Shown here: piece by piece, positions 9,583-24,300 of the stretch | Position numbering within the stretch: position 1 is the stretch's first letter | How the letters are laid out: every line of letters begins with the position of its first letter | DNA from: Tridacna crocea | Taxonomy: Eukaryota > Mollusca > Bivalvia > Cardiida > Cardiidae | DNA: 64,000 nt | Assembly (NCBI GenBank): GCA_943736015.1 | Contig: OX031063.1 | Span: forward strand, 37,712,672 to 37,776,671 | Reading direction: 5' to 3' | The notes under the pieces: generated by a model | Told to the model about the DNA's origin: nothing | The model's input: only the letters and a program-made list of their open reading frames with translations | The model's database searches: none | Made by a program: the position numbers and the translations under genes

Positions 9583-9686
9583 AAAAGTCGGGATTGTGTG
9601 GTAAAATCCCTCTTTCGGAGAACATGATTCAACTCGTTATTCAAAGACAAACTCTTTCTCTACGGTGTTTTTGTTGTTGTTGTTTA
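9583..9686. repeat. Local duplication, copy 1 (partner 10740-10856)
   Basis: Both copies share aaaagtcgggattgt, tttcggagaacatgattcaa, actctttct and a ttgttgttgtt tract in the same order. The TRIM at 9690 begins right after this copy. Confidence 0.55.
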
Positions 9687-9689
9687 TAT

Positions 9690-9895
9690 TGTTACGGGAG
9701 ACCACTCCTTCCTGCATGGCATTCTCCCGATTTAAATACAATACCTGGCTACTGCGTCAGGGAGATATCTCTTTGGCTCAGTGGTTAAGGTATTGGTCTT
9801 GCGTCCGGGAGTCCGGGGTTCGAATCCCGCTCGGACCCTTATTTCTGCCATGCATTTATTCATTTGTTTCTTTGTTACGGACTTTGTTCGTAAGA
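9690..9895 (+). repeat. 5' LTR of the TRIM
   Basis: 206 bp, TGTTACGGGAG... to ...TTCGTAAGA. Contains a TATA-like tttaaata near 9731 and the tRNA-like segment from about 9769 to 9840. Confidence 0.85.
9769..9840 (+). promoter_or_regulatory. tRNA-like Pol III promoter module in the 5' LTR
   Basis: A box TGGCTCAGTGG at 9774-9784 and B box GGTTCGAATCC at 9817-9827, 32 bp apart, both matching tRNA internal promoter consensus. Acceptor and T stems do not pair fully, so it is tRNA-derived rather than a functional tRNA gene. Confidence 0.75.
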
Positions 9896-9913
9896 TGGGG
9901 GCTCGTCCGGGAT
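9896..9913 (+). promoter_or_regulatory. Primer-binding site, tRNA-Pro type
   Basis: TGGGGGCTCGTCCGGGAT directly abuts the 5' LTR. The same 18-mer is the known tRNA-Pro primer site of gammaretroviruses; here it occurs in a short non-coding element. Confidence 0.85.
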
Positions 9914-10000
9914 TGGCCATTGAGCCATTAATCCCATTTGTTGTCCAAAATCGGACTTCCTGCCTAATAAGGCTTTGAGTCATCAATAAATGATGACTTT

Positions 10001-10011
10001 AAGAGGGGGTG
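10001..10011 (+). promoter_or_regulatory. Polypurine tract of the TRIM
   Basis: aagagggggtg ends at the base before the 3' LTR, the position expected for the plus-strand primer. Confidence 0.75.
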
Positions 10012-10217
10012 TGTTACGGGAGACCACTCCTTCCTGCATGGCATTCTCCCGATTTAAATACAATACCTGGCTACTGCGTCAGGGAGATATCTCTTTGGCT
10101 CAGTGGTTAAGGTATTGGCCTTGCGTCCGGGAGTTCGGGGTTCGAATCCCGCTCGGTACCTTATTTCTGCCATGCATTTATTCATTTGCTTCTTTGTTAC
10201 GGACTTTGTTCGTAAGA
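10012..10217 (+). repeat. 3' LTR of the TRIM
   Basis: 206 bp, same ends as the 5' LTR. Visible differences: ggccttg for ggtcttg, gagttcg for gagtccg, ggtacc for ggaccc, and gcttc for gtttc. A box at 10096-10106 and B box at 10139-10149 are intact. Confidence 0.85.
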
Positions 10218-10221
10218 ATAT

Positions 10222-10358
10222 AATCAATTAGCAGGGTAGAAAACATTGCGGGAAAAGGAGAAAATGCTGGTTTCCAGCATTTTCTCCTTTTCGCACAATG
10301 TTTTCAAAAGGGTTCTATCTAAGGGTCGTAAAAACCCGGAATTGTTTGGTAAAGGGTT
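10222..10358. mobile_element. TTAA-type MITE, left arm missing
   Basis: Core gaaaacattgcgggaaaagg with a nearly perfect hairpin, right arm ggaattgtttggtaaagggtt. The left arm is replaced by the TRIM flank. Confidence 0.55.
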
Positions 10359-21300: not shown

Positions 21301-24300
21301 TGGAGATACATTTAGCCTCCTTAACCCATTCCCAAAGAATCCCTGGTTTTTACGGTTCTGGAATAATAGCCTTTTGAAAACACTGTGTGAAAAGGAGAAA
21401 ATGCTGGTAACCAGCATTTTCTCCTTTTTCCACAATGTTTTCTACCCTATTGTAGACAGAAATCATCTTTTCAGCAAGAGTTGAATTGTCGTCTGCAAAT
21501 GCTTTCAATTTGATCTAGTCCAAAAGTTTGTCGTTTGGGAAAGGGTTAATAGTACTTATGTCAGAGTATAGCTCCAATGTTTTCAATTTGTACCAGTCTG
21601 AAGTAATGTTGTGCTGTAAAGAATGAAACATCAACGTGGACTCTAAATTGAAAGAAAGTTAAACGCATTGCCTCCACTTTGTACTCTTTATTACTCCACT
21701 TCCCCCTGTAACGAACCAACTTTTAAGTTCATGCGTTCATCACAGATTGGGAAAATGAACATTGGAACAGGAGCAAATCTTGTCTCAATCATCTCTTAAT
21801 ATTTGCTCATTGGGTTTTCTTTCCTTTTGTTCAAATGTTTGTCAGATCTTGATTTACACTGTACGCGAAAGCGCAGAAACCCGTGCTTAGCAGTCTGGGT
21901 ATTAACTTCAAGTTTTTTTTCAGCTATATAAAGAGATATCGAAACGAAGAGGAGAAGCTACTTGACATGCTCCAAGAGCGTGAGAGACTATTGAACTCTG
22001 CCATAAAACAAGGACAACAACTGCGGGCAAAATGCACACGATATAAAGAAGAACTAGACAAGTATACCTACTCATTTACAACACGAAAGTTCGCAACAAA
22101 TTCATAGCTGAAATGCAAACCGCACCTGTCGGAATGCGAACCCGTGCGGACAAATATATTCGATTTTTGAGGTTTGAACCCTTTCCCAAACAATCCCTGG
22201 TTTTTACGGGTCTGGAATGGTAGCCTTTTGAAAACATTGAAGGAAAAGGAGAAAATGCTGGTAACCAGCATTTTCTCCTTTTCCCACAATGTTTTCTACC
22301 CTATCATAGACAGAAATCATCTTTTCAGCAAGAGTTGAATTGTCGTCTGCAAATGCTTTCAGTTTGGTCTGGTCCAAAAGTTTGTCGTTTGGGAAAGGGT
22401 TAAAGACCAATAGCATTATTACCACTGAGCTAAAGAATTATCTCCCTACCGTATTCGTTAGATTTTGTATTTAAATCGGGACGAAGCCGTACATGAAGGA
22501 GTGGTCTCCCATAACACTACTTCCATAATTGGCTTGTAACACGTAAAATGGACATTCAGACATTTGCGTAAAGTGTCGTCTCGGATCAGCCTGCGCATGC
22601 CTCAAAGGCTAATCCGAAACGGCACAGTACGACCACGTTAGATTTTGTGATACAGTAGATTTGCCCAAAACAGAAAAATACGTAAAAACGGAAGGTGCTG
22701 TCGAGGACTGCACAGGCAGATCCGAGACGACACTTTACGCAAATGTCCAAATGCCCCTTTTTAAGTGTTGCCAGAACATGAACCCACATAATTTCCATAT
22801 CGTTTGCAGTATTTTCCGTGTATATATATATATATATATATAAAACCTTTAGATTTTATTTTGTCAGCGTGGATTAAAATGATATTGCGTATGATATCAA
22901 ATATCATATGAAATATATTGATGCATGTAGACTCTAGATCATCTATTGATCCTCTACAACGTAAAAGCAGTGTTATTACTTTCGCAGTCGATTGATCTAG
23001 TTTGTTGATAAGCCCAATAATTAATCTCTTCACCTTCTGGTAAGTGTATAAAATGTAGATCGAGGGTCAGTATTTTAGTTGGTTTAGTTTGTTTAGGTAT
23101 TGCTTAAAGTCTAAATGCAGGTACAAGCCTTTCAAATGCCGACATAAAACATCAGATCCAACGAGATGAACTGCATTGGAATTACGAATTAGAAGCAGTA
23201 TTTTTCATTGTACAGGCATCAAAAATGAACTAAAGATTTTATTTTCTAACGACCAAAAAGCAACATCTTTTTGGTAAACATTTTAATTTTTACAGCATCA
23301 AAGACAACACCAACGTAAATGAAAATCAATGGAAAAAGAGATATTATGAAATGGACAAAAAGTACAGAGATATCAAGGAAGAAGTAGATGTGATGGTGGC
23401 TAGAAATAGAAATGGAAGGTAAATCAAAGCACTGAAAGTACTGACAACCGGAAGCAGTTTCTCCGATCACTCTTAATCACTCCTACTCTGTGGAAAGAAG
23501 GTCTGAGGCATTTGCAAAAAAAGTTTCAGTCAAGGTCAACTTGCACGCTCTGCTTAGGCTGACCTTGGGCGAAACATTTTGGCATTGACAGAGAATTTCG
23601 TTCAAACCGTATTTTGATAAGTTCAGTAATGACATTTTCTAGATTAAGTGTACTTTTGTATAACCACTGGTTATCCATCGATAGTATTATTGCATTGTAA
23701 CATGTCAGTAATTTTTGTATTTTTTCTCTTCCAAACTAGTAATTGTAGTCGATCAGTATAACTGCACAATTATACGTCAATAATTTTTATATATTATCTC
23801 TTCCAAACCAGTAACATAAGTCGTAGTTGTGTTGTGTTGTGTTTAGAGAATACAACTTATATAGAAACCATTTTGCTGATTTGTTCTGTCTTAAGCTAGG
23901 ATTGCTCTGCTTCTGAATCATGTCTCTAACTCCTATATTTTTATCTGAAATATCTGAGACATGTTGTAATGCAATTTTATTTAAGTCATAGGGAAAAGTA
24001 TGACGAAACCGTATATGGTCTGCGGCACGCGAAAAAGGCTATTTGGACATTTCCGTAAAGTGTCGGTATGGATTAATCTGTGTTGTCTTTTCGGCTTTAT
24101 GCAATTTTCTGTCTTGCAGAAGTCTACTTTAGCACAAAATCTAATGTATTCGTAAAGTGGCGTCTCGAATCAACCTGCGCGGACTGTGCAGGCTGATCCC
24201 AGACGTCAATTCACGCAATGTCCTAATGTCCCTTTTCGAGTGTTGCAAGTCAATTGTAAAATAGTATACAACAATTAGAATGTATATAAACAAACAGGAA

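Follow-up and report, generated by a model that had tools for sequence, protein, structure and literature searches.

A Helenus-type TRIM with a tRNA-like promoter in its LTRs in Tridacna crocea and its likely Gypsy helper

Several TRIMs and SINEs are known to carry promoters of small RNA genes. Cassandra, a plant TRIM, is said to carry 5S rRNA promoter sequence in its LTRs, and tRNA-derived SINEs (SINE2) have A and B boxes and are mobilised by LINEs. The closest described system is Helenus, which comprises tRNA-containing TRIMs of fungi, plants and six animal phyla including bivalves (Kojima 2024, PMC10886601). Some Helenus families have tRNA-Pro primer sites and 4-bp duplications, and the 51 bivalve families come from five orders, all of them Pteriomorphia (PMC10886601). 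For animal Helenus only similarity of the primer site was reported as a tie to the helper and a Gypsy-type mobiliser was inferred, while Pol III transcription was left unproven and the way in which helper dependence is maintained was stated to be not known (PMC10886601). Another TRIM, biv-TRIM, was described from bivalves including heterodonts and another cardiid; the consulted parts of that report give terminal repeats of 202-218 bp, an internal region of 77-80 bp without a canonical primer site, a GGGGAGA tract in most cases and a sequence, TGATCCCAAAGGAC, conserved in every species but one (PMC6934838).

Structure and relatives of the window element

The whole stretch of DNA analysed, here called the window, is 64 kb long and contains one complete TRIM and one old LTR copy. 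Their features are as follows (coordinates, strand, description, basis).

9690-10217, plus: TRIM element, 528 bp, non-coding, ATAT on both sides
9686..9689, no strand: left target site duplication ATAT, 4 bp (sequence)
9690..9895, plus: LTR 1, 206 bp, TGTTACG...CGTAAGA (LTR-LTR comparison)
9730..9739, plus: TATA-like ATTTAAATAC of LTR 1 (best-conserved window between the two LTR types)
9774..9784, plus: A box TGGCTCAGTGG of LTR 1 (A-type vs B-type identity 0.879)
9817..9827, plus: B box GGTTCGAATCC of LTR 1 (identity 0.815, flanks 0.522 and 0.294)
9896..9913, plus: primer binding site TGGGGGCTCGTCCGGGAT, tRNA-Pro type, 18 nt (abuts LTR 1, no gap)
9896..10011, plus: internal region, 116 bp, non-coding (sequence)
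9978..9998, plus: 8-bp hairpin AGTCATCA/TGATGACT with AATAAA within, beside the purine tract (fold)
10001..10011, plus: polypurine tract AAGAGGGGGTG (abuts LTR 2, no gap; 1,284 exact tract-LTR junctions genome-wide)
10012..10217, plus: LTR 2, 206 bp (LTR-LTR comparison)
10052..10061, plus: TATA-like ATTTAAATAC of LTR 2 (sequence)
10096..10106, plus: A box of LTR 2 (regular expression)
10139..10149, plus: B box of LTR 2 (regular expression)
10218..10221, no strand: right target site duplication ATAT, 4 bp (sequence)
22403..22516, minus: old LTR copy (LTR 1-111, about 80%), tRNA-like part interrupted by an inserted repeat (sequence match)

Each part of the structure in the original prediction (206-bp LTRs, ATAT flanks, 18-nt primer site, purine tract, non-coding interior, A and B boxes) was confirmed, and its reading as a TRIM with a tRNA-like promoter in the LTRs proved right, with the features located in the window element and its junctions repeated genome-wide. 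The element length of 528 bp leaves no space for a pol gene, and no ORF of at least 180 aa was found in the 64-kb window. The primer site TGGGGGCTCGTCCGGGAT is presumably the complement of the tRNA-Pro 3' end. The letters of the hairpin beside the purine tract are identical in an old copy (L011) whose internal region is 90.5% identical. The two window LTRs differ at 5 of 206 bp, and four of these mismatches fall at sites variable across the TRIM family, which may be due to sequence exchange among copies and not to age. Two further copies (L008 and L021) likewise have an LTR pair made of two haplotypes at family-wide variable sites, and such mixed pairs point to copies having exchanged sequence during insertion or later.

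The A box occupies LTR positions 85-95 and the B box 128-138 in both window LTRs, 43 bp from start to start, and the TATA-like stretch (LTR 41-50) begins 44 bp upstream of the A box. Using one regular expression on both strands of the 64-kb window, these were the sole A+B pairs. ARAGORN and Rfam recognised no tRNA in the tRNA-like part and a whole tRNA fold was not detected, hence this part is a degenerate tRNA-like promoter and a working tRNA gene was rejected. The single Rfam match, a coronavirus frameshift element (E 0.24, 18 bits vs a cut-off of 46), was regarded as chance.

The Tridacna TRIM is of Helenus type, being matched to the published families by design and not by sequence. Shared with Helenus are a length below 1 kb, tRNA-derived A and B boxes within the LTRs, a primer site, a purine tract, the 4-bp duplications of animal families, the tRNA-Pro site of some bivalve families and the tandem arrays of one family. 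The Helenus box A (TRGCY...YGG) and box B (GGTTC) motifs are found in TGGCTCAGTGG and GGTTCGAATCC of both LTRs, and a Gypsy-type element that shares the primer site meets the TRIM at 12 exact chimera junctions and would be the mobiliser. The two cases differ in that the published bivalve hosts are Pteriomorphia, whereas the present host, Tridacna (Cardiidae), is a heterodont bivalve, and in that the helper Gypsy is linked here by chimeras rather than by primer-site similarity only. No heterodont Helenus was found in the literature library searched (papers from 2023 on), and the element is a range extension of a known design to a new host group. The original prediction, which knew of no described animal element of this design, was wrong on this point, as Helenus has been published in animals (Kojima 2024, PMC10886601). 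Membership of Cassandra, which shares a small-RNA-gene promoter in TRIM LTRs but has 5S rRNA instead of tRNA sequence, was rejected because Rfam found no 5S rRNA in the window. SINE2 elements share the A and B boxes but have no LTRs, primer site or purine tract. As far as the consulted parts of its description go, biv-TRIM shares the bivalve host range and a close repeat length (206 vs 202-218 bp); membership was rejected on the 116-bp internal region, the 18-nt primer site, the tract AAGAGGGGGTG and the absence, by eye, of TGATCCCAAAGGAC (PMC6934838). A search of a phage collection gave no match.

Family size and conservation of the LTRs

The genome searched comprised 1.049 Gb in 31 contigs. 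Contig C31 (29,009 bp), of which the first 10 kb were examined, is mitochondrial; its ND5 matches that of Tridacna crocea at 99% identity over 98% of its length and, next, that of T. squamosa at 94%, which fits a host that is T. crocea or a very close relative. A full-length search gave 42 matches at 97-100% (40 scored of 2,953 first-look candidates), while exact patterns gave 1,829 junctions of LTR and primer site and 1,284 junctions of purine tract and LTR, with no hit of the reversed control pattern in either case. Both junction counts are lower bounds for the family because mutated copies escape exact patterns. The number and identity of the matches, the junction counts and the empty controls are not explained by chance, and the TRIM family is young and large, with well over a thousand young copies. 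Among the first 100 primer-site junctions, all on contig C1, 68 had a purine-tract junction at TRIM spacing; of the rest, one belonged to a chimera (L079, at offset 500), one lay within a tandem array (at offset 434) and 30 were without an exact tract junction within 1 kb. Other copies do have both primer site and purine tract. Seven adjacent same-strand pairs, 300-350 bp apart, were found among the same 100 junctions and represent tandem arrays.

Altogether 41 loci were fetched, of which 34 had distinct left flanks and seven repeated a flank already seen (six within a larger duplicated repeat and one in a tandem array). An exact 4-bp target duplication was present in 28 of the 34 distinct-flank copies, and their LTR pairs differed on average at 1.9 of 206 positions, gaps excluded, with no mismatch in seven. 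The tRNA-like part lies inside both LTRs in all 34 aligned copies, which are the best matches to the window element and not a random sample, so that the tRNA-like part does not vary in place among these copies in the way that had been named as an objection. Older copies were frequently truncated or interrupted at the tRNA-like part. As a separate observation, seven of the 41 loci (L002, L003, L013, L014, L018, L026 and L041) have a common flank and the duplication CTGC; here the TRIM is carried within a larger repeat that was itself multiplied.

Besides the young type, older LTRs occur at identities of about 76-87%. The distance between the boxes is 42-45 bp in the A-type LTRs compared and 48-67 bp in six B-type LTRs, which have different sequence between the boxes and downstream of the B box. 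Five A-type and six B-type LTRs (30 pairs), hand-picked from 24 aligned rows with omission of nine A-type near-copies and four truncated or badly aligned rows, were compared. Identity reached 0.879 for the A box and 0.815 for the B box; it was 0.522 in the stretch separating them, 0.294 directly downstream of the B box, 0.737 in U3 and 0.554 in U5. The best 11-bp window was the TATA-like stretch (0.936 at LTR 44), and among 195 windows the A box ranked 15th and the B box 41st. Judged by these identities and ranks, the TATA-like stretch and the A box seem to be under constraint, and so does the B box, though less clearly. Conservation of the boxes after insertion was not apparent among the 34 young copies, where 10 of 94 singleton changes fell in the 44 of 528 positions that belong to boxes, which is close to chance. 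Hence, the idea that the boxes are conserved above background appears to hold between A-type and B-type LTRs and is not borne out among the young copies. The shared variants of the young type are concentrated in the tRNA-like part (15 of 23 in 160 of 528 bp, both LTRs counted).

A likely Gypsy helper and the proposed life cycle

The pattern of primer site, TT and non-G occurred at 53 sites, of which 31 were read; apart from one locus (L080), these were 22 TRIM copies, seven sites of a Gypsy and one unusual locus (L056). In this Gypsy, the LTR measures about 559 bp and ends with CTCGTAACA, followed by GAAAT and a primer site identical to that of the TRIM, and pieces of the Gypsy code for a SCAN-type gag as well as for an integrase carrying H2C2 and rve domains. 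A search with this LTR gave 1,879 candidates; the 40 that were scored were all 98-100% identical to the query and included 16 pairs 5.3-6.2 kb apart, showing that the Gypsy is young. Its purine tract, AAGGGGGGAAG in the four 3' ends read, differs from that of the TRIM. The LTR ends are alike (TGTTATG...CGTAACA in Gypsy, TGTTACG...CGTAAGA in the TRIM), but beyond the ends the two LTRs are dissimilar, which, like the difference in purine tract, counts against a helper tie. We consider this young Gypsy the likely helper, by which the TRIM would be mobilised. What is new here is that a likely Gypsy helper is tied to the TRIM by chimeras in the same genome.

The exact succession of TRIM LTR end, primer site and Gypsy internal start was found 12 times (reversed control 0), and 19 times with one mismatch allowed. 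All 12 exact sites were read, together with one of the seven one-mismatch sites (C1:818565, L049), which is a TRIM. A whole chimera with target duplication was seen in one of the 12 (L079); apart from L090 and L092, the right ends of the remaining loci lie beyond the 1.1 kb fetched. The left part of L079 consists of a TRIM LTR, the primer site, about 134 bp of Gypsy internal region and 251 bp of Gypsy LTR through its end, and the right part of GAAAT, the primer site, TRIM internal region and a TRIM LTR. Its two TRIM LTRs are identical and CTTG stands at both ends, so the chimera predates integration and was inserted as an LTR element. The breakpoint of L079 (Gypsy LTR 309/310) was considered as an RNA 5' end and dropped, having a 3-nt microhomology and lying about 75 bp away from where the TATA box would place the start. 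L091 and L093 have a common breakpoint at 8 nt shared by Gypsy gag and TRIM internal region, so the junctions need not all be separate events, and the breakpoint of L095 lies at a 9-nt overlap. L092 has a complex structure, its TRIM LTRs differing at 15 ungapped positions and no duplication being present, and L090 has a partial LTR next to an inverted LTR. Most simply, the two RNAs would be packaged in common particles, with reverse transcriptase switching between them; because the primer site is common to both, TRIM strong-stop DNA can join the Gypsy strand.

With regard to transcription, TTTT is absent from the sense strand of the window element (528 nt), as it was in 1.3% of 2,000 dinucleotide shuffles of the internal region plus LTR 2, and thus Pol III could read from LTR 1 through LTR 2. 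It is likewise absent in 31 of the 34 distinct-flank copies, with the next TTTT at a median of 45.5 bp downstream of the element. Several older B-type LTRs carry TTTT between the boxes, which argues against an old constraint on terminators; the absence is confined to the young A type, and selection against Pol III terminators was weakened as an explanation. The TRIM LTR has no AATAAA, the only copy being internal, before LTR 2. The Gypsy LTR has a TATA box near position 202 and AATAAA at 494, and no A+B pair was detected in it by the regular expression used. Judged from these sequence features, Pol III transcription of the TRIM is plausible, and the TATA-like box at LTR 41-50, the best-conserved stretch, would also suit Pol II.

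Most probably, the element is a non-autonomous Helenus-type TRIM with a Pol III-made RNA, moved by the Gypsy helper via tRNA-Pro priming. Pol III would initiate within LTR 1, shortly before the A box (near LTR position 70), and read through the element into or past LTR 2, giving an RNA that carries the promoter in its repeated end. This RNA would enter Gypsy helper particles, where tRNA-Pro would prime reverse transcription, with an occasional switch to helper RNA; a 3' tail past LTR 2, if any, would be lost at the first strand transfer, and Gypsy integrase would insert the TRIM DNA.

Three other readings were weighed against this one. It is rather unlikely that the same TRIM is transcribed by Pol II from the TATA-like box, with the A and B boxes as relics of an old SINE or tRNA insertion that do little. 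The position of ATTTAAATAC, some 27 bp upstream of the start predicted around LTR 70, and its place among the windows most conserved across LTR types (0.936 at LTR 44) suit this reading, and new singletons are not rarer in the boxes (10/94 in 44/528), as dead copies predict. However, the identical pattern is expected of a TATA-containing Pol III promoter, both boxes persisted across LTR types even as the stretches between and behind them were replaced, and the sole AATAAA lies in the internal region before LTR 2 and not in an LTR.

Equally improbable in our view is that the 12 TRIM-Gypsy junctions arose by DNA recombination at the shared primer site (about 21 nt) instead of co-packaging and template switching. 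The shared stretch is sufficient for some DNA pathways, in four of the 12 loci (L093, L094, L097 and L098) the LTR is preceded by TRIM internal sequence, as in arrays, and L090 has an inverted LTR upstream, but the perfect 4-bp duplication and identical TRIM LTRs of L079 place its chimera before integration, and the overlaps at two other breakpoints, 8 and 9 nt, are short for homologous recombination. A simple tandem duplication or SINE cluster that mimics an LTR element has practically no chance of being correct: tandem forms exist (the seven adjacent pairs on C1), yet the counts refute it, as 28 of the 34 distinct-flank copies show 4-bp duplications within unrelated flanks, primer-site and purine-tract junctions stand in well over 1,000 places each and 68 of 100 keep the fixed spacing. 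For the preferred reading, a Helenus-type TRIM with Pol III-made RNA and a Gypsy helper, the Tridacna genome lets the finding of a helper by a TRIM with its own promoter be tested, as a young helper and the TRIM coexist there with a common primer site and short LTR ends in common and with different promoters.

Probable copied tRNA primers and neighbouring repeats

In L056, two identical TRIM LTRs surround an unusual internal part, in which 39 nt starting with TGG are followed by the inverse of LTR 57-114, joined over a shared CGCA; no 4-bp duplication was found at this locus. The 39 nt are presumably the complement of the 3' part of tRNA-Pro including CCA. In L081, a Gypsy LTR is followed by these 39 nt with a single G to A change; they end at the same letter as in L056 and continue into unlike sequence. 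The first 24 nt occurred at 714 sites with up to two mismatches, one of them exact (L056) and nine with one mismatch. CCA is added to tRNA after transcription, therefore both pieces are most simply explained as copied primer, and it looks like L056 and L081 carry the tRNA primer, CCA included, copied into DNA. In the numbering of tRNA-Pro, the copied pieces would end just before G37. In the consulted parts of PMC13191261, m1A58 is described as the normal stop of plus-strand strong-stop synthesis and m1G37 as present in tRNAs reading C-starting codons except CAN. In L056 and L081, the copying may have run beyond position 58 and stopped at 37. The breakpoint of L056 at LTR 57 was also considered as an RNA 5' end and was dropped as a single case. 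Together, the chimeras and copied primers would record steps of joint TRIM-Gypsy reverse transcription.

Two side observations concern these loci. L056 (G000:C3 near 97300) sits in a Gypsy element, whose frame gives an integrase followed, as judged by eye, by the beginning of a reverse transcriptase; this order is known from Gmr1-type elements. In L080 (G000:C4:2619500-2620100), a TRIM LTR and primer site pass straight into an inverted LTR, with the joint at GGGATTCGAAC, the point of similarity between the B box and the tRNA T-arm.

A speculative and quite doubtful possibility, to which we give less weight than to the Pol II and DNA recombination readings, is that the tRNA-like part of Helenus LTRs arose and is renewed through template switches, both to the tRNA primer and from one LTR to another, and not by a SINE landing in an LTR. 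The joining of the 39 nt of tRNA-Pro type with CCA in the anticodon arm to the tRNA-like part of the LTR in L056, the joining of the primer site to the inverted LTR at the B box/T-arm in L080 and the retention of both boxes in A-type and B-type LTRs with exchanged blocks between and after them would point in this direction.

A hairpin repeat (GAAAACATTG..GGAGAAAATGCTGG/CCAGCATTTTCTCC) lies at window positions 10239-10305, 21 bp downstream of the TRIM, and related inserts were found at about 22170-22402 of the window and about 700-950 of L011. The inserts in these two old LTRs (window 22403 and L011) stand at the same TTAA-like spot in the tRNA-like part, which suggests that the hairpin repeat is a TTAA-targeting MITE.
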